From Streptomyces sp. NBC_01216 (GTDB lineage Bacteria > Actinomycetota > Actinomycetes > Streptomycetales > Streptomycetaceae): 64,000 nt of DNA. Positions 6,802-63,075 of this stretch are shown here, piece by piece. How positions within the stretch are numbered: position 1 is the first letter of the stretch; every line of letters starts with the position of its first letter. A model generated the notes under the pieces. It searched no databases and was not told the origin of the DNA. It saw nothing but the letters and a program-made list of their open reading frames with translations. Both the position numbers and the translations under genes were made by a program. Location: NCBI RefSeq assembly GCF_035994945.1, contig NZ_CP108677.1, forward strand, positions 682,001-746,000, read 5' to 3'.

Positions 6802-9800
6802 GTGGCGTCGGCTGTGGCTGATCTGATCGCCGCGCAGCAGCCCCTGGAGCGCGTGGCCATGGTGGTGCGCCGCGGATCCGACGGCATCCCTCGATTCAGT
6901 GCTTCCGGATTCATGCTCGCCTCACGGCTGGCCATCTGCGCTGGCCACGGCTTTACCCATCCCGGTGACAGCTATGAGGTGAGACTTCCAGGGCGGTCGA
7001 CTAAGAGGCTTCCGGTCACCGCGGTGCTGCGGCACCGGATCGACGATGTGGACCTCGCCCTCCTGGTTCTCGGGGAGGGCGGGCCTGTCATTCCTCCCGC
7101 CCGGTGGGGCGTCCTGCCCCGAACCGTGGAGTCGGTACCGTTCATCGCGATCGGGTTCCCCGACCATGCGTCGCGTCAGGACGTGCCGAAAACCCGTCAG
7201 TTGACCGGGGCGATCCTTCTGGGCTCCTTCCTGGGGAGCCACGAGGTGGAGCTGTCCCTCAGCAGCCCTGCGCCGCAGGAATCAAGCGGATCTCCCTGGC
7301 GGGGGCTGTCCGGGGCAGGGGTCATCACGCAAGACGGCGTTCTCGTCGGCGTATGCACGAGCCACCACGTTCCGTCCGGCGCGGCGAGCCTCACCGCAAC
7401 CAACCTCTCCCAGGTGTCCCGGGATCCTGAATTCGTGCGTCTGCTGGCCGAGCACGGGGTGGAGCCGGTGCTACCGGGGGACATCATGCCGATGCCGTTC
7501 GATCCAGCCGTGCGCGGCCTCGTACGCACCCATGCCGAGGTCATGCGGCGCCTGCTCGGACGGCGGAGCTTCCTCGACGAGGAGCACTTGCCCTTCATCC
7601 ATCCGGGGATGGACCACGTATCGCATCCGGACCGCCTGTTCGCCCAGCTGAGCACTGGCCGTTCACGAGGGGCACTGCTGGTAGGACCAGCCGGTTCGGG
7701 CAAGACGCGGACATGCTTCGAGGTTGCGCACCGGGCGGACCGCGCGGGCTGGCAAGTCCTGCACGTCCAGCCCGACAGCGCCGTGACGGTCGACGACGTG
7801 GCCGCATCCGTCGTCTCGTGCGGGCACCGACGGGTGCTACTGATACTGGACTACCTCGATGCCTGCCCACAGGTCGACCTGCGCGTCCTCGCCGACGTGC
7901 TGATCCCCGAGGCCAGGCGACGTGGCGCGACGGTGGCGTGCCTGGCCTCCGTGCGGCCCGGCTCCCTGCACACGGTTCAGCTCCGTGGCAGCAGCCGGGT
8001 GCTTGACGAGATCTATCTACGAGAGGACTGGCCACACCAGTCCGCGATCATCGACCAGGTAGTCCACCGCGCGGCACCCGAAACCGTGCGCCGATGGGGG
8101 AACGAGGCACTGTCCCAGATCTGCGGGCGGCGTCCGGTAATCGCACTGCTGATCGCACGGGCGATCGAGGAGCAGGGGCTGGCCCAGCACACACCGGGAG
8201 TGGCGGTATCGGTCCGGCCCGGCGAGCTGCTGGACTGGCTGCGCGAGGGCATGCGCCGGGACGCGCTCGCCAAGGAACCCGCACTCAGCCCCTCCCCCCT
8301 GGGTATCACCACCCCTGCTATCGAGCAGCTGGCCTTCACTGTGGCGGTCGCGGCGAGCCCGCAGCCCCGAGTGGTCGTCGAACAGACCATCGACACCTTC
8401 CTCACGGTGGCCGGTGGGCTGGCCGTTCCATTTGGAGGGCGGCACGTCGTCGACACGCTGATCTCACTTGGGTGGCTCGATGAGGTCGGCGGACAGCTGA
8501 TCGTGGTCCACGACATCGTCACCGACGAACTCCTGGTGCAGTCACTGATGCCATCTCCCGGATGGAGCATCGACGCAGCTGCTGCCGGTGCGCTCTTTGC
8601 CGCGTTCACGCGGCATGCACGTACGTTCTCCGTGTTCACCGGCCATCTCCGACGGCTGGCCGTCGACATGGCCGCGCATGGCCCCGCCCATCGGATCGCC
8701 GCCCTGGAACGCTTTTGCGGGGAATGGCTCACGGCCCAGGTGGAACCGCTCGGCCGCCTCTTGGCGGGCGCCGGTGACGACGGCGGCCACGCGCTGCTGA
8801 CGATGGTGGCGAGCCGGCCCTGGCAAGGGTTCGACCGCTCCGTGTGGAACACGCTGGTTGCTCCCTGGCTCTCCCGCGCCGAGACCGACCACACCGCGCA
8901 GCCGTTCCTCACCGCCGCCCTGAGAGGTATGGATCCCGCTCCCGCGTTCCTTGTCGAGGCTTCCGTCGGATGGCTCGTCCGCCGGGGCGGACAGACCGAC
9001 ACGGAGCATCTTCTGCTCGCACTGATCGAGCGCCCCGACCTTTCGCCGAGGACCGAGGACCTGGTGGTCGACTGCACCCTCGCATGGGTGTCTTCCCGTC
9101 CCGACTGGCGTCACACGCCCGCGCTGTTGAAACGCCTGCTGGCCATGGACCACTCCAGGGATCGACTGGAGAGAGTGATCGCGGGCGTACTGGCGTGGCT
9201 CACTCCGTACCGGTCCCTCGGAGTCGCACCCGTGATCCGTATGTTTCTGCAGCGTGCGGACATCGACGCGGTCGCCCGCCGGAAACTCGTGGACCACGGC
9301 CTCGTATGGTTGCGCTCCGATCTGCGCCCGGGCGTGAACATCGGTCCGGAACTGTGTGCTCTGCTTGAAGACGGCCACCTCCCGGACCCGGACCGCGCGA
9401 CATTGATCCGAAGCGCGCTGGACTGGCTGGAGACGGGGCGGGTGTACCCGAGCACGGGCCGGGTCGTGCACAGACTCCTGTCCATGGACGGGAGTCCGCC
9501 GGAGCTGCGCCCCAGGGTGATCGCCGTCGCCCGTCGGTGGGCGGCTGAGGGCCCTGCCGGCCACCCGGCAGGCTCCCGTGTCCTGGGCACGCTGCTGTCC
9601 ACCGACAGCGTTGCGGACGCCGCCGCCCTTCTCCTGGAACGACTGAGGTCGCAACCTGACGCCCAGTCCGGCCCAGCCATACTCCTTCGCCTGCTCATCC
9701 ACTACGAGGAACTCACCCAGGACCAGGCTCGGACCGCCGTCACGCTCGCCTACACATGGCTCGACAGCCGCCCTGAGCACGAGGCCGTCGGTGCCGTTCT

Positions 9801-10440
9801 GGGCGCCCTCCTCCGCGTGCCGGACCTGCCGCCCGCACAGCTGCAGCGTGCCATCCGTCTCGGATGCGCCGCGCTCCTCGCACGTCCGGATGATCACGTG
9901 CTCATGGCCGTCATGCTCAGCCAGCTCCATGGGCTGACGCGCGATCAGGCACGGTCGATCGCGGACGTCAGCCTGCGGTGGCTCGCCTGCCACGGCGGCA
10001 AGGTCCAGCGCCCGGTGCTCGCTTCCTTCCTCACACGCCCAGACCTGTCCGTCGAACAGGCACGCATCGGCATCGACATCGCTCTGGCCCGACTGAGCAC
10101 CGACCGGTCGATGAAGTCCCGCTCCGTGCTCTCCGGTGTCCTGCGCCACCCGGCCCTCGACGAGGACCTACGATCCCGCGCCGTCGACAGCGCCCTGAGC
10201 TGGCTCGAAGAACACGACATGGGGCCGAAGGCACGTCTTGTCATCGAGGATCTGCTCTCTCTCCCGGCGCTCCCGCCGAGCCAGAGATTCCACGTAATGC
10301 GTCTGGCAGCCGGCTGGTTGACCCGGCACGAAGAACTGCCGTACGCAGATCGCCTCCGCTCGGCGCTCGACGCCGAGACGCGGCGCGACGCCTCGCGGGA
10401 ACGACCCGGAGCGGACTCAGGACCGCCTGCCCGGCGCTGA
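6802..10440 (+). CDS. trypsin-like protease / P-loop NTPase / helical-repeat protein (conflict-system type)
   Basis: 1212 residues with three parts. Residues ~15-215 form a trypsin-like domain: candidate triad His49 (AICAGHGF), Asp84 (DDVDLALL) and Ser170 (WRGLSGAGV). Residues ~280-560 form an NTPase with Walker A GPAGSGKT (~295-302), Walker B LLILDYLD (~346) and a sensor-like ACLASVRPG. Residues ~690-1190 carry roughly 35-40-residue alpha-helical repeats with a recurrent pattern of LL...L..PDL...Q...AI..AL.WL. This is the layout of STAND-type sensors: repeats detect a cue, the NTPase switches, and the protease is the effector. GTG start at 6802 has no strong ribosome site, suggesting coupling to the upstream Trypco2 gene; GTG 6814 is an alternative. 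No signal peptide, so cytoplasmic. Target and trigger are unknown. Confidence 0.85.
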   Translation: MASAVADLIAAQQPLERVAMVVRRGSDGIPRFSASGFMLASRLAICAGHGFTHPGDSYEVRLPGRSTKRLPVTAVLRHRIDDVDLALLVLGEGGPVIPPARWGVLPRTVESVPFIAIGFPDHASRQDVPKTRQLTGAILLGSFLGSHEVELSLSSPAPQESSGSPWRGLSGAGVITQDGVLVGVCTSHHVPSGAASLTATNLSQVSRDPEFVRLLAEHGVEPVLPGDIMPMPFDPAVRGLVRTHAEVMRRLLGRRSFLDEEHLPFIHPGMDHVSHPDRLFAQLSTGRSRGALLVGPAGSGKTRTCFEVAHRADRAGWQVLHVQPDSAVTVDDVAASVVSCGHRRVLLILDYLDACPQVDLRVLADVLIPEARRRGATVACLASVRPGSLHTVQLRGSSRVLDEIYLREDWPHQSAIIDQVVHRAAPETVRRWGNEALSQICGRRPVIALLIARAIEEQGLAQHTPGVAVSVRPGELLDWLREGMRRDALAKEPALSPSPLGITTPAIEQLAFTVAVAASPQPRVVVEQTIDTFLTVAGGLAVPFGGRHVVDTLISLGWLDEVGGQLIVVHDIVTDELLVQSLMPSPGWSIDAAAAGALFAAFTRHARTFSVFTGHLRRLAVDMAAHGPAHRIAALERFCGEWLTAQVEPLGRLLAGAGDDGGHALLTMVASRPWQGFDRSVWNTLVAPWLSRAETDHTAQPFLTAALRGMDPAPAFLVEASVGWLVRRGGQTDTEHLLLALIERPDLSPRTEDLVVDCTLAWVSSRPDWRHTPALLKRLLAMDHSRDRLERVIAGVLAWLTPYRSLGVAPVIRMFLQRADIDAVARRKLVDHGLVWLRSDLRPGVNIGPELCALLEDGHLPDPDRATLIRSALDWLETGRVYPSTGRVVHRLLSMDGSPPELRPRVIAVARRWAAEGPAGHPAGSRVLGTLLSTDSVADAAALLLERLRSQPDAQSGPAILLRLLIHYEELTQDQARTAVTLAYTWLDSRPEHEAVGAVLGALLRVPDLPPAQLQRAIRLGCAALLARPDDHVLMAVMLSQLHGLTRDQARSIADVSLRWLACHGGKVQRPVLASFLTRPDLSVEQARIGIDIALARLSTDRSMKSRSVLSGVLRHPALDEDLRSRAVDSALSWLEEHDMGPKARLVIEDLLSLPALPPSQRFHVMRLAAGWLTRHEELPYADRLRSALDAETRRDASRERPGADSGPPARR

Positions 10441-10640: not shown

Positions 10641-10660
10641 TGACCTGCGACTCTTTCGAG

Positions 10661-10734
<74 letters not shown>

Positions 10735-54865: not shown

Positions 54866-54923
54866 CTGCGACTCTCTCGAGTCGGGACGACAGGATTTGA
54901 ACCTGCGACCCCTTGACCCCCAG
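54865..54923 (-). repeat. attachment site: 3' half of tRNA-Pro(GGG) plus flank (att, partial tRNA copy)
   Basis: 59 bases match 10644-10702 with a single mismatch: 42 bases of tRNA 3' half, from the anticodon loop (CTGGGGG) to the discriminator, plus 17 bases of 3' flank. The 5' half of the tRNA is missing, replaced by AGATCGATGG and unrelated DNA to the right. Because the tRNA reads leftward, the 3' half with native flank at the left end must be the chromosomal half-site of an element inserted to the right, with the restored tRNA at the element's far end beyond the window. pSAM2-type elements use tRNA-Pro in this manner. Confidence 0.85.
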
Positions 54924-55102: not shown

Positions 55103-57319
55103 TCAGGAAGCGGTGTGCCGCCGCTTCCGTTCAGCTCGGCGTCGCAGGTCGCGGACGACCTCGCGCCAACGCCAGGAACCGTCCCAGTCGCAGCCCTCGT
55201 GCCCACCGGGCTCCCAGTCCGCAAGCTCTTCCAGCTGCTTGAGCAGGGCATCCGGATCGACAGGTACACGGTGCGTACGCTCGTCGTCGAGCTGCCCTGC
55301 GATGGCGTGCAGCCGGTGAGCAGCACGGTAGTAGGACAGCTGGGTGTCGGTCAGCCGGCGTACGGCGTAGCCGCCGCACTTGCTGCACCAGTCCCAGTCG
55401 TCACGGGCCAGCAGGTCGGCCAGGGTCAGGAGGTCGTCGCTCGCCGCGAGGCCTCGATCCCGTGTGTGCCTGCAGAGGGGTGAATGCCCCTTGCCTTCGA
55501 ACGTGGGATCCGCGTTCGCGGCGTAGATCTGCGCCTGCCCCAGGACACCCAGCGGCAGGCTGCTACCACTGAGCCAGCGGTCGGCACTGGGCGGCCGGAA
55601 CGGCGTGAGGTCCAAGGGGCCGGACGCGAGCAAACCCTCCCACACCGCAAGGGGCATCATGCTGGAGCGACCGGTGTCGAGACTCCGCAAATCGGGGACG
55701 CCACGCGCCGCGGCGAGCAGGCGCAGATTCTGCTCCTTCGCGCGCTCCCCCTGCGCCCACCGGACAGCTACCTGAGCCCCGGCCGCAAGGCCCACGTCAG
55801 CGCCGAAGCGGTCATCCTGCCTCGTGCTGTCGCGGCCCGGGTGAGGTCCCTCGTGGACCTCCGGCGTAAGGCCGACCTCCTTGATCCACGGACTGATCAC
55901 GCTTTCGGGAAGGTCCGACGCGCCGGCGACAATGACGCCGAGCCAGCCCTGCGCGACACGCTTCTCGATGGCGTCGAGGGGCAGAACCTCCGCTCCTCCG
56001 CTCGTCGAGAAAACGATGTAGAGCTGGTGTGCGGCGTACGAGAAGTTCCGCAGCGCCCGCAAATGATCAGGGGTAACGGGCTGGCGGTCGAAGACAGCGG
56101 TGTCGTCGAAGACCCCGGGCCGTACGGAGCCGGGTTGCGCGTGAGGGACAGCCTCAGCCGACGCGGCTTCGGCTCCCCGCTCGCATGCGAGGGCGCTCGA
56201 GGATGCAAGGAGTCTGTCGGCGACGAGGGTGGGGACCTTCAGCGTCAAGGTGCGTCGGCTCCAGTCGGCGCTCACGGTCCAGGTCACCACCACCCCGAGG
56301 GTCCACCGATCCAGGTCGTCCAGGACATCACGTGTATCCCCGCGCGAAGGCTCCTCCGTGTCCTCCGGCAAGCGTGCCGTGACCCACACCGTCGGTGTTG
56401 AATCCGTCGCCGCAGCAGCGGCGCGGGCCTCGTCCTCCCATGACTGGATCAGGCGGGCAGCTCCTTCCAGGGCTTCCGTGTGCCCCTTCTTGTTGGACCT
56501 GATGCCCTCGACGAGGTCATAGCGCCTGATCGCGCGGGATGCCGGTCCCTCCCAGCCCCGCTCGGCCGAGTACTGCCACCTGCGCCATAGCGTGCTCAAG
56601 CCTGTGGAGATCTGGCTGCGGTTGCCGAGCACCGCGAAGGCAGGATCGTCGGCGGGCAGTGGGGGCGTTTCCAGTGTCGCTGCTGCAGCGGCTACGACGA
56701 GACCGGCCGGCTCCACGAAGAGGGCCGCCTGCGCCCGCAGGGTCTCGAGGTAGCCCTCCTTCGCCAACAGCTTCGGCCGCGCCCATTCCGTCAGCCAAGG
56801 GAAGTGGGCGATGACGGCCTGCGCTCGGTGAAGGCTCCCGCAGGCATGACGCCAGAGGGACAAGACCTGTTCCTGCAGCTCGTCGGCCTCCCTGCGCGTT
56901 TCCCACCGCCCGTCGTCGTCCTCGTCGTCTTCGTCATCCTCGTCCGCAGCATCCCGCTTCGAACGCAGGAGCTCGGCTGCGGCCCGCACTTCGCCCTGAG
57001 TCCAGTACACGTCCTCGTCCGGCTCGACATAAGCCTGCAACTGGTAAAGCAGTCCCAGGCCGCCGAGCGCCCCCATGAAGATGCCCAGCCCGGACGTCGG
57101 CCGCGCCCTCGGGCCCCAGTCCGCGCAACCTGAGCAGAACCTGCCCACCACGTCCGCGTTCAACGGGACCTCGGTCGTCGTCACGTTGGCCGTGCGGAGC
57201 TGGCCGCATTCCTTCCGGACATGCAGTCTGGTGTTCTTGCCCTTCGCCGAGTAGACGGTGATCTTGGTGCCCTCGAACGGCCCGAGCGGTACGTCGGCTG
57301 TCAGCATGCGGTCGCGCAC
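55103..57319 (-). CDS. uncharacterized protein with N- and C-terminal Cys/His clusters
   Basis: 738 residues; no family recognised. The N-terminus has RLHVRKECGQLRT with RFCSGCADWG, a possible H/C-C-C-C zinc site (~30-70). The C-terminus has HSPLCRHTRDRG with WDWCSKCGGYAVRRL (~620-665), the same layout again. Between lie an acidic stretch (DEDDEDDEDDD, ~125-135), a helical middle, a YAAHQLYIVFSTSGGAEVLPLDAIE segment and many Arg/Trp/Leu-rich helices. No P-loop, nuclease or membrane motif is seen. GTG 57319, with GGGGGAG five bases upstream, sets the start. It is the last gene of the minus-strand cassette after the SNF2 and SWIM genes, separated by 348 bases. I can say only that it probably binds metal and works with them. 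Confidence 0.7.
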   Translation of the reverse strand: MRDRMLTADVPLGPFEGTKITVYSAKGKNTRLHVRKECGQLRTANVTTTEVPLNADVVGRFCSGCADWGPRARPTSGLGIFMGALGGLGLLYQLQAYVEPDEDVYWTQGEVRAAAELLRSKRDAADEDDEDDEDDDGRWETRREADELQEQVLSLWRHACGSLHRAQAVIAHFPWLTEWARPKLLAKEGYLETLRAQAALFVEPAGLVVAAAAATLETPPLPADDPAFAVLGNRSQISTGLSTLWRRWQYSAERGWEGPASRAIRRYDLVEGIRSNKKGHTEALEGAARLIQSWEDEARAAAAATDSTPTVWVTARLPEDTEEPSRGDTRDVLDDLDRWTLGVVVTWTVSADWSRRTLTLKVPTLVADRLLASSSALACERGAEAASAEAVPHAQPGSVRPGVFDDTAVFDRQPVTPDHLRALRNFSYAAHQLYIVFSTSGGAEVLPLDAIEKRVAQGWLGVIVAGASDLPESVISPWIKEVGLTPEVHEGPHPGRDSTRQDDRFGADVGLAAGAQVAVRWAQGERAKEQNLRLLAAARGVPDLRSLDTGRSSMMPLAVWEGLLASGPLDLTPFRPPSADRWLSGSSLPLGVLGQAQIYAANADPTFEGKGHSPLCRHTRDRGLAASDDLLTLADLLARDDWDWCSKCGGYAVRRLTDTQLSYYRAAHRLHAIAGQLDDERTHRVPVDPDALLKQLEELADWEPGGHEGCDWDGSWRWREVVRDLRRRAERKRRHTAS

Positions 57320-57667
57320 TAATTCTCCCCCTTCTCCTGCCTCGCGAGCTTAGAGCCGAGCAGTGACACATGCCGCCCAACGATGAATCTCCAGCCCTTC
57401 CGGTCGACTGGTGTACAAGTGCAGTTGCCTGTCGGCGAGAGTGGCAGCGCTGCGACGCCCGCCGACACCAGACGGCTCCGATGTCGGTTCGCGACCGTCT
57501 CGGGGCCGTGGGAGGACGCCCGAAGCGGACCAGGGCCTGGAAGCGGGCCTTGCGGGCGGCGCGGCGGCAGACCGTGAGGATGGCTGGGCCGAGATACAGA
57601 CCAGGGTGATGGCGTACTGGACCCTCCGTTCTGTCGCAGATTGCGGTTCAGGGCGGTGTTTCTGCCG
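57320..57667. other. gap between SWIM-protein gene and the 738-residue gene
   Basis: 348 bases on the minus strand with no gene or ribosome site of its own, apart from that of the 738-residue protein. Third-position base use is less extreme than in the chromosomal core. A separate promoter for the distal gene may be here, but I cannot place it. Confidence 0.35.
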
Positions 57668-58555
57668 CTATGCCGAGGTACTGGCTGCGGTGATTCGGTT
57701 GCGGAGGTCCGCGATGTCGAGGCCGAGGCGGTCGGCGATTTCCGGGATGCAGGTGTGCGGGATTCGGGCGGCGAGCCGGACGGCGTCCTCGTCCCAGGCG
57801 CATTCGAGCGGGGTTCCGCCGCGGAGGAAGTCCCTGGCCTGGGTCGCGGCATCGTTGACGAGGGCGTGCAGGTGCTCGGTAGTGGGTGCGGGAGGGGGAG
57901 GCGGAGACCAGGCTGGGGGGCCGGGCGGCGGCTCGTTGGAGAGTGAGGGCGAGTACTTGGGAATCGGCGGCAGGTCGGGGCATTCCCTGTACCAGGCCCA
58001 GGCGTGGTGTGCCGAGATCCGGGTCTTCGGCCTGGTGTCGGTGCTCGCGCCTGCTGCGGGGAGGTCCTGGGCTGGGTGTGGCGGCTGGCGCAAGCCGCGC
58101 AGGGCGGCGAGGTCTTCTGGGTGGGTGCGGAGCCGGTCGATGAGTGCGTGGGCCAGGGCGGCTGCGTGCCGGCAAGGCGAGGTCGCTGGGCAGGTGCAGA
58201 TGAAGCTGAGCTCGGCGGGCTCGGACAGTAGCGTCACGCCACCCGTGTGGGCGGGATCTGCCAAGCACTCGGGTAGTGCGCCGTCGTCGGCTTCGTGCTG
58301 CTCGCACTGGGGCGTTGCTGTGCGGAGGGCGGCCGCCTGGTCGGCGGTGAGGACCGGCAGGGTGATGGCGGCATGGAGTTCCGCGCCGGTGTTGCGTGCG
58401 GTCACGAGGCCGGAGATGCGTCCGGGTGAGATCAGGAAGCGCTCGATGCCGAGCTCGTCCAGGTCCGCTCGGCCGCCGAGGAAGACTTCCTGGTCGGTGA
58501 TGGCAGCGCGCGCGGCGGCACCGAAGCCGTCGGCCCACATGCTCGTCTGGTTCAT
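57668..58555 (-). CDS. SWIM zinc-finger protein
   Basis: 295 residues. SWIM motif C-x-C-x5-C-x-H: ICTCPATSPCRHAAALAHALID at ~118-138, preceded by a beta-rich part (FLISPGRISGLVTARNTGAELHAAITLP). C-terminal parts have a Pro-rich region (SNEPPPGPPAWSPPPPPAP, ~205-225) and a helical tail. SWIM domains bind nucleic acid or protein and are frequent partners of SNF2-type helicases. ATG 58555 overlaps the SNF2 stop (ATGA), so the two are translated together and probably form one complex. The metal-ligand spacing is intact. Confidence 0.9.
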   Translation of the reverse strand: MNQTSMWADGFGAAARAAITDQEVFLGGRADLDELGIERFLISPGRISGLVTARNTGAELHAAITLPVLTADQAAALRTATPQCEQHEADDGALPECLADPAHTGGVTLLSEPAELSFICTCPATSPCRHAAALAHALIDRLRTHPEDLAALRGLRQPPHPAQDLPAAGASTDTRPKTRISAHHAWAWYRECPDLPPIPKYSPSLSNEPPPGPPAWSPPPPPAPTTEHLHALVNDAATQARDFLRGGTPLECAWDEDAVRLAARIPHTCIPEIADRLGLDIADLRNRITAASTSA

Positions 58556-61500
58556 CGGCTGGCTCCCAGGGCGATCAGCTGGCAGATTTCGTCGTCGCTG
58601 AGCTCGCTGAGGGCGGAGCTGTCGCTGGTGAGGATGGCGTCAGCCAGGGCGCGTTTGTGGCGGAGGAGTTCGTCGACCCGGTCTTCCAGGGTGTTCTCGG
58701 TGGTGAGCTGGTGGACGGTGACGGTCCGGGTCTGGCCGAGGCGGTGGGCCCGGTCGATGGCCTGGCTTTCCTTGGCCGGGTTCCAGGGTCGGTCGAAGAG
58801 GATGACGTGGCTGGCCTGGGTGAGTGTGAGGCCCGTTCCGCCGGCCTTGACGGTGATGACCATGGTCTGTCCGGGACGAGTCTGGAAGCTGTCGATGACG
58901 CGCTGCCGGTCGCGGCCAGCGGAGATGTCGCCGCTGAGATAGAGCGGACTGATGCCGTGGCGCTGGAGGTGATGGACGAGGCGGTGGGCCATCGCCCGGT
59001 ACCGAGTGAAGATGAGGCACGACTCGTCCGGGTCGCTGAGCAGGGGCAGGAGGTCGTCGAGGGCTGCCAGTTTGCCCGATCGGGCGGCGGCGCGTTCGGG
59101 GTCGTAGGAGTCGTCGAGCGGTTCGGCGAGGAAGTGCTCGGGTGCGTTGCAGATCTTCTGCAACTGGTCGAAGAGCTTGAGCAGGAGGCCCTTGCGCGCG
59201 ATGCCTTCGGCGGCACGGATCTCGCGAAGGGTTTCGTCGGCGACGTGCTGGTAGAGGGCGGCCTGCTCGGGAGTCAGCGCGACGATCCGGGGGCTGTGAA
59301 CCTTGGGCGGGAGATCGGGTAGGACTCCTGGGTCGCTCTTGCGCCGTCGGAGCATGAAGGCTTTGAGGAGGCTGGAAAGCCGGTCGGTCAGCTCTGTGTC
59401 GGTGATGTTCTCCTCGATTGGCTTGCCGAACTGGTCCCGGAAGGTCCTCAGGGTGCCGAACAGCCCGGGGTTGAGCCAGTCCATCAGAGACCAGGCGTCG
59501 GAAAGGCTGTTCTCGACGGGGGTCCCGGTCAGGGCGACGCGGATCTGGGACTGGATACGGCGCATGGCCATGGCCGTGGCTGTCCGGTGATTCTTGATCA
59601 GCTGTGCTTCGTCGGCGATAACGAGGTCGAAGGGGTGTGTGGCCAGGACGTCGATGTCGCGGCGGACGGTCTCGTAGGTTGTGATCACCACGCTGCGGTG
59701 CGTCGTTTCGTCCAAGGTCCGGTCCGGGCCGTGGTACCGCACGGTGGGCACCGTGGGGGCGAATCGCTGTACCTCGCGTTCCCAGTTGATCACCATGGAA
59801 GCCGGGCAGACGATCAGGGAGGGTCCGGCGGGGCGGCTGGTGCGGTCCCGGCGGTGCAGGTGGAGCGCGAGGGCGGTGAGGGACTTGCCGAGTCCCATGT
59901 CGTCGGCAAGGAGGGCTCCGAAGCCGGCGTTGGTGGTGTTCGCCAGCCATGCGAGGCCAAGCTTTTGATAGTCGCGCATCGTGGCCGACAGCCCGTGGGG
60001 GGAGTTCACCGGGGCGCTGCGGGAGCCGGCGCGCAGGAACTGCACGAGCTCGGCGAGGTCTCCGGCCGGCTCGCAGTCGAAGGTGTCGCCGTCGATGCTG
60101 ATCTGCCCGGTCAGAGAGGCCCGCAGCGCCTGATCGGCGGCGACGGGCGGCATTACGCGGTCTCCTGCACGCTGGGCTGTCTCCTCGTCGACGAGCACCC
60201 AGTGGTCGCGGACCTTCGCCAGCGGTACAGGAGTCTTCGCAAGGTCGTCCATTTCGCTGTCGGACAGGTCGGTGCCGGCCACCGACAGCTGCCAGCGTCC
60301 GTCGAGTACGTCGTTCAGGGCGAACCGGGGGCGAGCCGCGGAGACCGGGGCTGCCGGGCGGCGCTCCAGGACCGCGCGGGTTCGCAGACGGTCCGTCCAT
60401 CCGTGGTGCCATTCCACGCGCAGCCCTGCTCGCTCCAGTTGATGGGCGACCCGCCCTCGCAGCAGGACGGCCTCGGCCGCCCGCAGGGTGAAGGTGTCGG
60501 GGGTGGGACGCTCCAGAAGCCGTTCGGCGGGCGCCCACTCGGCCGCGATGTGACGGAGCCGGCGGCGCAGGAGGGCAACGAGCTGGGGGTCGGACGCGAT
60601 GTCCGCCGCAGGGCGCCAGTTGCGTTCATGTTCCGTCGGGGCATCCGGCATGCGCAGCCGAAGGTCTGCCCAGAGCAGCTCAGTGTCGTGCGGGCTGTCC
60701 TTCTGCGGAGCGCGGACCGACAGGACCAAGTCCAGCGTCTCGGCGGCCGCACCGTCCCGCAGACCATCACCCCACTGCACGAGCGCGGGCGCGTGCTGCT
60801 GCCGGGGCACCGCCCCGGTGAAAGGCCCGTGGCCGAGCACGGTCGGCGTACCCGGGCCGCGGAGCATCGCCTCGGCAACTGCGTTGAGCCCGGCGAGAAT
60901 CGCGACCCGCGGGGCCCACAACCGGTGCGGTTTCGTGTCCGTGACCATGCCGCAGTTCGCCGACGGTACGAGGGCATCGGCGAGTCGCCCGACCCACTTC
61001 TCCTCTTCGCCAGTCAGCGGGCCGGCCCGCCACACGTCCGTCCCGTCGTCGGCCAGCTCCGGGAAGACTCGGCCGTCGGCCACGACAGCCAGCCCTAGAC
61101 GGATCACCTGACGCCACACGCCGACCGAATGCGCCTCCTTGCCCCGTTCCTCCTCAGAGGCGAGCACGTTGGCCAACAGGCGCAGCGGGACGTGCCAGCA
61201 CTCCACGAGCCGAAGTTGGATCGCACATCCCTGCGTCGGCAGGATCAGTGCGGCCGTACAGGTGCGGATCGGACGACGGGGCGTCCCCTGTACCGGCAGC
61301 CCGTCGGGGCTGTAGAGCAGGAAGCGTGCACTCCCGCCCTGGATGTCGATGGTGAGGTCCGCGCCCTGCCGCAGCAGCGCCGCCAGTGAGACTTCCGCTG
61401 CGGTGATGTCGGCGGCTCCTGCGACCGGTCCAGCGGGCCCGTGCCGGACGCGGTCATCATGGATGTCCGGCGTCGGCTCCGCCTGAGCAGCCTGGGGTGC

Positions 61501-63075
61501 CGCGCCAGGTGGAGCAGCCAGTAGCTCCACCATGGCCTTTGCCGCGTTGCGCTGGGCGGGCCGCCTCTCCGCTCCGGCCGCCTCAACCCGCAGTTCCTGC
61601 CCCGCAACCTTGCAGGTCACCGTCGCGAGGTACCCGGACCCTGGTTCGAGCCGCGGTTGGCCGATGACCAGCTTGGCGATCCGGCCCTTCTGCTTGAGTG
61701 AATTCAGCACCTGGAGGGCGGTCATCTCGTTGATGGCCGGCACGTTCTCCTGCCCCGGCCAAATACGGAGCGCGGGCGCCGTCGACCGCCTCCACTCGCT
61801 CAGCAGGTGCTTGGCCGCTTCGAGGCGGGCTCCGGACCTTCCCACGCCGCGGCCTGTGCCCGAGAGCACCTGCCCGTTGCTGACGCAGGCGGCCACGCAC
61901 ACGAACAGAGGCTCCAGCCCTGTGATGCTCGGTTGCTCCTTGAAGGTCAGCTCGCTGATCAGACCCCCCTCCTGCATCACAAGGAGCCGCTCCTGTGGGC
62001 CGGGAGCGGCCGTCTTCACCGCAGGGGCAGGGGCCTGGGCCGGCCGCGGCGGGGGAACCTCGACGGGGAGGCCGGCGAGATCGGCCAGAACGCGCAGTGC
62101 GACCACGCCCCGGGCATCGCGCTTGTTGCTGCGCCACGGACCGGTCACGGTCGCCGTCTCGCCGCCGGTCACGTACGTGACGCGTGACCGGAACAGCACC
62201 GCGCCTCCGGACTGTTGCTCCTCGTCGAACTCCGGGACGGGCTGGTTCCGAACGGAGTGGTACAGCGTCAGCACGGCGACGGCGGCCCCGGGCGTCTCGG
62301 CAGCAGCGCACAAAACCGCCTTGCGGGCAGGGTCCCAGGCGGTCGCCGCAGCATCGAAGAGCACGGCATGAAGGTCGCGCGGGATCAGCGCACCCGCGGC
62401 GATCCGGGTGGCTACCTCGGCCACCACGGCCGGGGCCACGACCGGTTGCGCGAGGGCGCGCAGCAGTCGCGACGCGAAAGTCGGGTCAGCGGCTGCGGCT
62501 GCCGAACCGGCCGAATACCGGGCCGCTGGCAGCCAGCCCTTCCCGGCGAAGTCAGCCTGCTCCACCGGTTCACAGCCGGACATGTGACCGAGAAGGCTGA
62601 CCACGGCGCCTTGCAGCGCAGCCTTCTTCGTCCCGCGGGTGACGGCGGCGCCGTGGAGCTGCCGGACCTGATCACGCCAGCCAGCCTGCACGACGAACAG
62701 CTCAGGACCACCGGTATTCAGATCCCGGACTACGAGCGCGGTCGGGACACCGCTGTCCTGGGCATGGGAGTGCAGCACCGACGTGGCGAGCTCGGGCCTT
62801 GCCCTCACCACCGCCCAGGCCGCCGCCGTCGCCTGCTCGGCGAGGCGGGATCCCTTGAACCGGAGAAGGAGTAGACGCAGCTCTTTAACGCCCAGCCGGC
62901 CGTTTCCGGCACGGACGGCTGCCTCGGCAGCAAGCTCAGAGGTGAGGTGCCGGGCTTCATGCGCCTTCTCCAGCAGCCGGGAGAACACCGAGGGCTCGAG
63001 GGCGCTGAGGTCTACCCGGGAGGGGGGCGAGGGGCGCGGAACCCGGGCTGACTGAGCGGAGGGGAGAGTCGCCAT
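58552..63075 (-). CDS. SNF2-family ATPase with tandem dsRBD-like N-terminal modules
   Basis: 1507 residues. The C-terminal ~500 are a complete SNF2/SF2 motor: LLADDMGLGKSLTALAL (~1056-1070), ITTYETVRRD, VIADEAQLIKNH (~1152-1162), VALTGTPVENSLSDAW, SCLIFTRYRAM, YLSGDISAGRDRQRV, KAGGTGLTLTQASHV and ESQAIDRAHRLGQTRTV (~1436-1452). A DUF3670-like region precedes it (~880-1000). The N-terminal third contains up to four dsRBD-like patterns, ending in (K/R)xxAxxxAAxxLL helices near ~150-162, ~318-333, ~414-426 and ~505-520. The clearest two are QERLLVMQEGG...GTGRGVG...AAKHLLSEW and NSLKQKGR...AAKAMVELL. ATG 63075 with GAAGG. Likely remodels nucleic acid or protein-nucleic-acid complexes; a defence role is inference. 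Confidence 0.9.
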   Translation of the reverse strand: MATLPSAQSARVPRPSPPSRVDLSALEPSVFSRLLEKAHEARHLTSELAAEAAVRAGNGRLGVKELRLLLLRFKGSRLAEQATAAAWAVVRARPELATSVLHSHAQDSGVPTALVVRDLNTGGPELFVVQAGWRDQVRQLHGAAVTRGTKKAALQGAVVSLLGHMSGCEPVEQADFAGKGWLPAARYSAGSAAAAADPTFASRLLRALAQPVVAPAVVAEVATRIAAGALIPRDLHAVLFDAAATAWDPARKAVLCAAAETPGAAVAVLTLYHSVRNQPVPEFDEEQQSGGAVLFRSRVTYVTGGETATVTGPWRSNKRDARGVVALRVLADLAGLPVEVPPPRPAQAPAPAVKTAAPGPQERLLVMQEGGLISELTFKEQPSITGLEPLFVCVAACVSNGQVLSGTGRGVGRSGARLEAAKHLLSEWRRSTAPALRIWPGQENVPAINEMTALQVLNSLKQKGRIAKLVIGQPRLEPGSGYLATVTCKVAGQELRVEAAGAERRPAQRNAAKAMVELLAAPPGAAPQAAQAEPTPDIHDDRVRHGPAGPVAGAADITAAEVSLAALLRQGADLTIDIQGGSARFLLYSPDGLPVQGTPRRPIRTCTAALILPTQGCAIQLRLVECWHVPLRLLANVLASEEERGKEAHSVGVWRQVIRLGLAVVADGRVFPELADDGTDVWRAGPLTGEEEKWVGRLADALVPSANCGMVTDTKPHRLWAPRVAILAGLNAVAEAMLRGPGTPTVLGHGPFTGAVPRQQHAPALVQWGDGLRDGAAAETLDLVLSVRAPQKDSPHDTELLWADLRLRMPDAPTEHERNWRPAADIASDPQLVALLRRRLRHIAAEWAPAERLLERPTPDTFTLRAAEAVLLRGRVAHQLERAGLRVEWHHGWTDRLRTRAVLERRPAAPVSAARPRFALNDVLDGRWQLSVAGTDLSDSEMDDLAKTPVPLAKVRDHWVLVDEETAQRAGDRVMPPVAADQALRASLTGQISIDGDTFDCEPAGDLAELVQFLRAGSRSAPVNSPHGLSATMRDYQKLGLAWLANTTNAGFGALLADDMGLGKSLTALALHLHRRDRTSRPAGPSLIVCPASMVINWEREVQRFAPTVPTVRYHGPDRTLDETTHRSVVITTYETVRRDIDVLATHPFDLVIADEAQLIKNHRTATAMAMRRIQSQIRVALTGTPVENSLSDAWSLMDWLNPGLFGTLRTFRDQFGKPIEENITDTELTDRLSSLLKAFMLRRRKSDPGVLPDLPPKVHSPRIVALTPEQAALYQHVADETLREIRAAEGIARKGLLLKLFDQLQKICNAPEHFLAEPLDDSYDPERAAARSGKLAALDDLLPLLSDPDESCLIFTRYRAMAHRLVHHLQRHGISPLYLSGDISAGRDRQRVIDSFQTRPGQTMVITVKAGGTGLTLTQASHVILFDRPWNPAKESQAIDRAHRLGQTRTVTVHQLTTENTLEDRVDELLRHKRALADAILTSDSSALSELSDDEICQLIALGASR

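Follow-up and report, generated by a model that had tools for sequence, protein, structure and literature searches.

The 64,000-nucleotide stretch of the Streptomyces sp. NBC_01216 chromosome analysed here (positions 682,001 to 746,000 of NZ_CP108677.1; hereafter the window) encodes an SNF2-type ATPase whose C-terminal motor is preceded by an array of four predicted double-stranded RNA-binding domain (dsRBD) folds, and, overlapping its gene, a SWIM-type zinc-finger partner. These two genes form the conserved unit, and this unit is accessory. The best explanation of its features, which we hold with about as much confidence as doubt, is an RNA-directed SNF2 motor encoded by an accessory two-gene operon. 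The parts of the unit are as follows.

58552..63075, reverse strand: SNF2 ATPase with N-terminal dsRBD array (P0001), 1507 amino acids
62800..62994, reverse strand: predicted helical bundle 1, residues 28-92 (AlphaFold2)
62578..62793, reverse strand: dsRBD-like unit A, residues 95-166, with alpha-beta-beta-beta-alpha order in the model and a profile match to unit B of 95.5%
62296..62478, reverse strand: predicted helical bundle 2, residues 200-260 (AlphaFold2)
62074..62292, reverse strand: predicted dsRBD unit B, residues 262-334
61780..61998, reverse strand: predicted dsRBD unit C, residues 360-432, closest to dsRBD3 of Loqs/TRBP
61516..61719, reverse strand: predicted dsRBD unit D, residues 453-520, the most canonical in sequence
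60115..60504, reverse strand: DUF3670, residues 858-987 (Pfam 71.4 bits, cut-off 27.6)
58591..60009, reverse strand: SNF2 motor, residues 1023-1495
57668..58555, reverse strand: SWIM partner, 295 amino acids, in ATGA overlap with the SNF2 gene
58166..58198, reverse strand: SWIM motif C-x-C-x5-C-x-H of the partner, residues 120-130 (C120, C122, C128, H130)

An initial annotation, made from the sequence alone, had proposed up to four dsRBD-like ends in the N-terminal third of the SNF2 protein, and the case for them is now stronger than first claimed. Structure prediction of this region returned tandem dsRBD folds: the AlphaFold2 model contains four alpha-beta-beta-beta-alpha units within residues 95-520, and a fold search with the predicted structure matched units B, C and D to solved dsRBDs, with no row for unit A itself among the matches listed. 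Profile comparisons within the protein reveal an internal repeat (residues 28-172 versus 196-342; 96.7%) and connect unit B with D (92.5%), C with D (95.1%) and B with C (81.5%), unit A being linked to unit B only. Among five scanned relatives with the corresponding region, four score above the cut-off for dsrm (PF00035; 30.4, 40.1, 31.1 and 29.4), and a precomputed dsrm annotation is present in 29 of 44 rows of relatives. When compared with a profile of Streptomyces RNase III dsRBDs (30 dsRBDs from the genus dsrm search, RNase III being assigned by size and sequence), unit D reaches 25.4, whereas 35 control windows taken from this protein score no higher than 13.5. Helix 2 of units A, B and D starts with basic residues that are near-invariant across 44 aligned rows (K151 in 41, K318 and R319 in 42 each, R322 and R505 in all 44); position 504 is K in 41 of these rows and R in the window protein. 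Tandem dsRBD folds ahead of an SNF2 motor are thus supported by the model, by the fold matches of units B to D and by dsrm in the relatives, and RNA binding is predicted for the dsRBD-fold units of the window protein.

Several observations weigh against recognition of RNA by this array and against an RNA-directed motor. With dsrm the window protein scores 16.5 bits, below the Pfam cut-off of 23; the relative P0037 (19.5 bits) is likewise under the cut-off, and a genome-wide dsrm search (E 0.001) missed the SNF2-dsRBD genes of the window and of the genomes G029 and G090. Against the RNase III dsRBD profile, unit A is marginal (16.9), and units C (13.7) and B (12.0) are not distinct. The usual RNA-contact motif has a pair of basic residues that unit C lacks, R413 and R417 (43 of 44 rows each) occupying its place; dsRBD3 of Loqs/TRBP, the closest counterpart of unit C, binds protein. 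The pTM of the AlphaFold2 model is 0.36, so that the model gives no reliable mutual arrangement of the domains. SNF2 motors, moreover, mostly act on double-stranded DNA, and four distant partner proteins (from the loci L025, L112, L113 and L116) do not possess the SWIM motif, only their C-terminal part being kept.

Some of this evidence would also suit a scaffold, in which the dsRBD-fold units mediate protein-protein contacts and have lost RNA binding. The best alignments of unit C are with dsRBD3 of Loqs, dsRBD5 of Staufen and the TARBP2 chain in a Dicer complex, all of the protein-binding type, and the dsrm scores of the window protein are low. We nevertheless consider a scaffold improbable, given the near-invariant basic helix 2 residues in units A, B and D, the relatives with dsrm above the cut-off, and the fusion of the same module to an exoribonuclease described below.

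The presence of a full SNF2 motor, proposed from the sequence, was confirmed: the open reading frame contains, as read in translation, the intact motifs DDMGLGKS, DEAQ and QAIDRAHRLGQ, and the Pfam domains SNF2-rel_dom (residues 1036-1313; 207.7 bits, cut-off 24.9) and Helicase_C (residues 1335-1447; 72.6 bits, cut-off 23.5) are both detected, a combination that places the protein in the SNF2 ATPase superfamily. Its best curated match is NF058637, the SCO1167/SCO6262 helicases (830.7 bits, residues 584-1503). This match favors a view of the protein as an ordinary helicase of that family whose N-terminal extension is unremarkable, but the score stays under the curated cut-off of 1200, the additional N-terminal 570 residues hold four dsRBD-like folds, and a paralog encoded on the same chromosome (L002) matches the SNF2 protein only from residue 582 onward; we therefore regard this view as even less probable than the scaffold. 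In the motor tree, the 13 rows of the window's clade cluster at 100/100 (one core row was used, and the row of L115 is mis-framed).

The paralog L002 is also relevant to a comparison with RapA, the bacterial SNF2 ATPase of RNA polymerase. A RapA- or Mfd-like transcription factor, whose motor would work on double-stranded DNA and RNA polymerase while the dsRBDs would do no more than hold on to hairpins in the nascent RNA, is in our view a possible but rather unlikely alternative. It is favored by a weak match to the RapA model and by the location of L002 beside rpsA-like and coaE-like open reading frames (named by reading); however, the RapA score is 41.1 against a cut-off of 576, and the exoribonuclease fusion provides an example of the module without an SNF2 motor.

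The ATGA overlap of the SNF2 gene with that of a SWIM protein had been reported in the initial annotation, and both the coordinates of the open reading frames and the motif at residues 120-130 bear it out, the Pfam SWIM score of the partner being 12, under the cut-off of 19.6. In all 19 SNF2-dsRBD loci examined (the window, L014-L020, L022, L024-L026, L112-L116, L120 and L121, the remnant L023 being excluded), the partner gene lies directly downstream of the SNF2-dsRBD gene, although at L017 it is truncated by the contig end. Of 13 SNF2/partner junctions read, 12 are ATGA and the remaining one is GTGA. Fifteen of the 19 partners contain the SWIM motif, and because the C-terminal domain is retained in the four that do not, this domain may be the essential part of the partner, as judged from sequence. 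No further called gene is common to all SNF2-dsRBD loci, and some neighbors recur in sub-groups of 2 to 5. L023 (genome G009; about 8847-9476) is a decayed copy of the unit, in which a short stretch of the SNF2 gene, from its dsRBD part, directly precedes a short stretch of the SWIM gene.

A third gene had been counted as part of the same mobile cassette.

55103..57319, reverse strand: third gene, with two Cys/His clusters, starting 348 bp past the SWIM stop on the same strand

Its two Cys/His clusters are real, since the residues C38, C62 and C65 and H612, C616, H618, C645 and C648 show little or no variation across 56 aligned rows. The protein belongs to a family with at least 97 relatives listed, mostly from Streptomyces and Kitasatospora; its structural model is confident (pLDDT 81.3), and comparison of the model with the PDB gave no match with an E value of 0.001 or lower. 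Its membership in the system was rejected. Among 199 genomes of the same genus, the module occurs in 7 (one of these a remnant) and the third gene in 20, often only as fragments, and the two co-occur in a single genome, that of the window. A homolog of the third gene is absent from the other 18 SNF2-dsRBD loci, as judged by tblastn and, for two plasmids, by blastp of called genes. The proposed three-gene cassette fails because the third gene and the module rarely co-occur; when conservation of the neighborhood is compared, the third gene drops out and the pair of SNF2 and partner genes holds.

The module itself is found with a second type of effector. On a 338-kb replicon of the same genome (G000:C2), a second locus matches residues 198-427 of the SNF2 protein at 30%.

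L003 310-2250, on this 338-kb replicon: RNB exoribonuclease fused to the helical-plus-dsRBD module

The encoded protein scores 185.4 bits for RNB and 45.8 bits for a C-terminal dsrm, and its C-terminal part aligns with the modules of the SNF2 protein. That an RNA nuclease and an SNF2 motor share this module is the main argument for RNA as its ligand. A profile of six modules (A4) has matches in 17 of 392 genomes of the genus. As determined by tblastn and reading of the open reading frames, SNF2 forms are present in 11 of the 392, one of which carries two; RNB forms occur in 3 of the 17, and the window's genome holds both kinds. The remaining A4 matches are the remnant in G009, a 427-amino-acid open reading frame in G331, and matches to the last dsRBD only (G032, G109 and a second place in G370). 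Searching with the module of the RNB protein yielded 26 proteins, all of which, among proteins of comparable length, have precomputed RNB and dsrm annotations; dsrm (32.1 bits) is likewise present in an RNB protein from a Rhodococcus plasmid. The three RNB loci tested (L029, L110 and L111) gave no SWIM match. Across 394 genomes sampled at class level, the full module was found only in the window's genome, and five others match the last dsRBD only. Since Kitasatospora and Streptacidiphilus proteins are listed among the relatives of the SNF2-dsRBD protein, the family extends beyond a single genus.

A dsrm search of 101 genomes of the genus gave 107 matches. One hundred of these occur one per genome, and all but one of the hundred lie in frames of 252-382 amino acids, which by their size and dsRBD sequence we take to be RNase III. 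Two large proteins (L077 7470-10394 and L079 6583-8895) combine one dsrm domain (38.6 and 35.7 bits) with a degenerate RNase III-like region whose Ribonucleas_3_3 score is below the cut-off; open reading frames at L118 and L119 resemble them by reading only.

The initial annotation placed the SNF2 gene, the SWIM gene and the third gene on an element inserted at a tRNA-Pro gene. Such an element exists, but only one of its ends is within the window.

54876..54923, reverse strand: 48-bp tRNA-Pro 3'-end fragment at the distal island end, matching the intact tRNA-Pro

The intact tRNA-Pro is located at chromosome positions 838459-838533, in the same orientation as the fragment, and is adjoined by a tyrosine integrase (PF00589, 79 bits), the pair lying at 837.2-838.5 kb. 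The island between fragment and intact gene is about 101.6 kb long, and the SNF2-SWIM unit sits at the end far from the integrase. The tRNA-Pro at window positions 10660-10734 does not form an end of this island. No relative was seen in which both island flanks are joined as an empty site; in this comparison the left flank matches many SpoIIE-like paralogs. In G004, the relative whose left flank matches best (92%), one tRNA-Pro is close to that flank and a second one lies at the right flank together with what reads as a recombinase-like open reading frame, so that the site looks occupied there as well. Relatives of the unit reside on linear plasmids, namely pSCL2 of S. clavuligerus (typed mobilizable) and pSVL1 of S. 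vietnamensis (typed non-mobilizable). Both the tRNA-Pro island with its integrase and these plasmids support the mobile context originally suggested.

The segment at window positions 10660-54923 lies between direct repeats of the tRNA-Pro 3' end; the SpoIIE-like gene at its right end is on the opposite side of the tRNA-Pro in G004, as if the segment were permuted. Next to the tRNA-Pro at 10660-10734, positions 6802-10440 encode a 1212-amino-acid protein of conflict-type architecture with trypsin-like (Trypsin_2, 28.4 bits, over the cut-off) and STAND-NTPase-like (nSTAND_NTPase5, 30.8, under the cut-off) parts.

A defence role of the unit is possible. Stated in full, as an anti-phage or anti-plasmid system in which the dsRBD array senses invader duplex RNA and the SNF2 motor stops transcription or replication of the invader, it seems to us doubtful; we are similarly reserved about the suggestion that such RNA would consist of sense-antisense pairs or structured phage RNA. 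The accessory and patchy occurrence of the unit on islands and plasmids speaks for it, as do a PADLOC candidate (PDC-S18) beside L014 (1.7e-118), a type I restriction subunit near L015 (5.8e-32) and a DrmD-like SNF2 protein near L016 (5.1e-81), although these flanking proteins were hand-picked. The motor also resembles the models of ZorD (Zorya) and DpdE; together with DrmD (DISARM), these are defence proteins with SNF2 motor similarity. However, the motor matches defence models in its SNF2 part only and misses the curated NCBIfam cut-offs of ZorD (263.5 versus 1500), DrmD (59.3 versus 610 and 91.4 versus 950) and DpdE (40.5 versus 500). Enrichment in the flanks is likewise unproven: 89 flanking proteins match 71 PADLOC models, compared with 24 for 91 control proteins, these counts being per model and not per protein, and 20 of the 25 flank models listed represent one family (PD-T4-6). 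The controls came from the RNB loci and the window's own island (92 were listed, and one protein of 2446 amino acids was omitted), and control accessory regions also hold DndC and methyltransferases. Because of this way of counting, the one-family bias and the origin of the control set, we claim no enrichment of defence genes. Furthermore, the loci have no conserved third gene, and the unit has no match in 50,697 phage records or, in a pattern scan, among the viral contigs of IMG/VR. The candidate defence nuclease PDC-S18 lies directly downstream of the SNF2-SWIM pair at two loci, L014 (15685-16491) and L015 (15641-16490).

Returning to the RNA-directed motor, we envision that the four-dsRBD array, with its predicted folds, binds duplex or strongly structured RNA and would thereby hold the C-terminal SNF2 ATPase on this RNA or on the transcribing complex that produces it. 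ATP-driven movement could then unwind or remodel the duplex, or strip off bound protein or RNA polymerase. The co-translated SWIM-type protein, the standing partner of the SNF2 branch, probably aids substrate binding, and the RNB sister fusion would degrade RNA of this class instead of remodelling it. Given its carriage on islands and linear plasmids, the unit probably has a role in conflict or regulation between replicons, of which anti-phage defence would be one possible form.

Each half of this arrangement has known counterparts. Fold and array relate units B, C and D to the multi-dsRBD proteins TRBP, Loquacious, R2D2, HYL1/DRB4 and MLE/DHX9, the last of which likewise joins dsRBDs to an ATP motor; the window protein differs in being bacterial, in having an SNF2 motor and not a DExH or Dicer one, and in the helical bundles before units A and B. 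RNB (RNase R-like) exoribonucleases with dsRBDs are known from Streptomyces and Rhodococcus plasmids, the Streptomyces ones sharing the helical-plus-dsRBD module; in these proteins, a nuclease replaces the motor. SNF2 motors are regarded as translocases of DNA. In plants, by contrast, the SNF2 protein BRM/CHR2 has pri-miRNAs as substrates, which it unwinds, and the zinc-finger protein SERRATE as a partner, according to the available text of PMC7017052, and thus offers a precedent for an SNF2 motor that acts on RNA duplexes with a zinc-finger partner. There, separate proteins target the RNA, whereas the dsRBDs of the window protein are on the same chain, and we claim no homology beyond the motor. 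An SNF2 motor that is directed by RNA and has a zinc-finger partner is the chemistry most consistent with the parts of the unit. In bacteria, dsRBDs and SNF2 motors each occur in conflict proteins, as HEPN-RNase III-dsRBD and HEPN-SNF2 fusions, and the accessible part of PMC3710099 does not describe the two in one protein.

The SNF2 motor, DUF3670 and the overlapping SWIM-type gene ally the unit with the SWIM-associated prokaryotic SNF2 ATPases (SsoRad54 type; NF058637), whose association and occurrence in mobile systems have already been published, as seen in the available text of PMC5512222; dsRBDs are unmentioned in that text (term count 0), and the window protein falls short of the family cut-off, as stated above. 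Among the matches listed, the literature in PMC, which leaves subscription journals mostly outside its scope, contains no description of a bacterial combination of dsRBD and SNF2. The SNF2-SWIM pair is hence already known; what is new here is the added dsRBD array, and the unit belongs to a small family in which one module is combined with either of two effectors.

In a wider and more tentative reading, which we rate as less than an even chance, the family represents a mobile and modular platform for the recognition of RNA duplexes in Streptomyces and its relatives, of the form (helical bundle + dsRBD)n + dsRBD, in which the SNF2 effector would remodel and the RNB nuclease destroy the bound RNA; this would give bacteria a counterpart to the handling of double-stranded RNA by TRBP, Dicer and MLE, operating between replicons or against invaders. 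For the SNF2-SWIM pair, for which we found no assigned function, the array would provide a link to RNA. The combination of four predicted dsRBD folds with an SNF2 motor, together with an exoribonuclease sister, makes the idea of duplex RNA as a signal for ATP-driven remodelling testable in bacteria.
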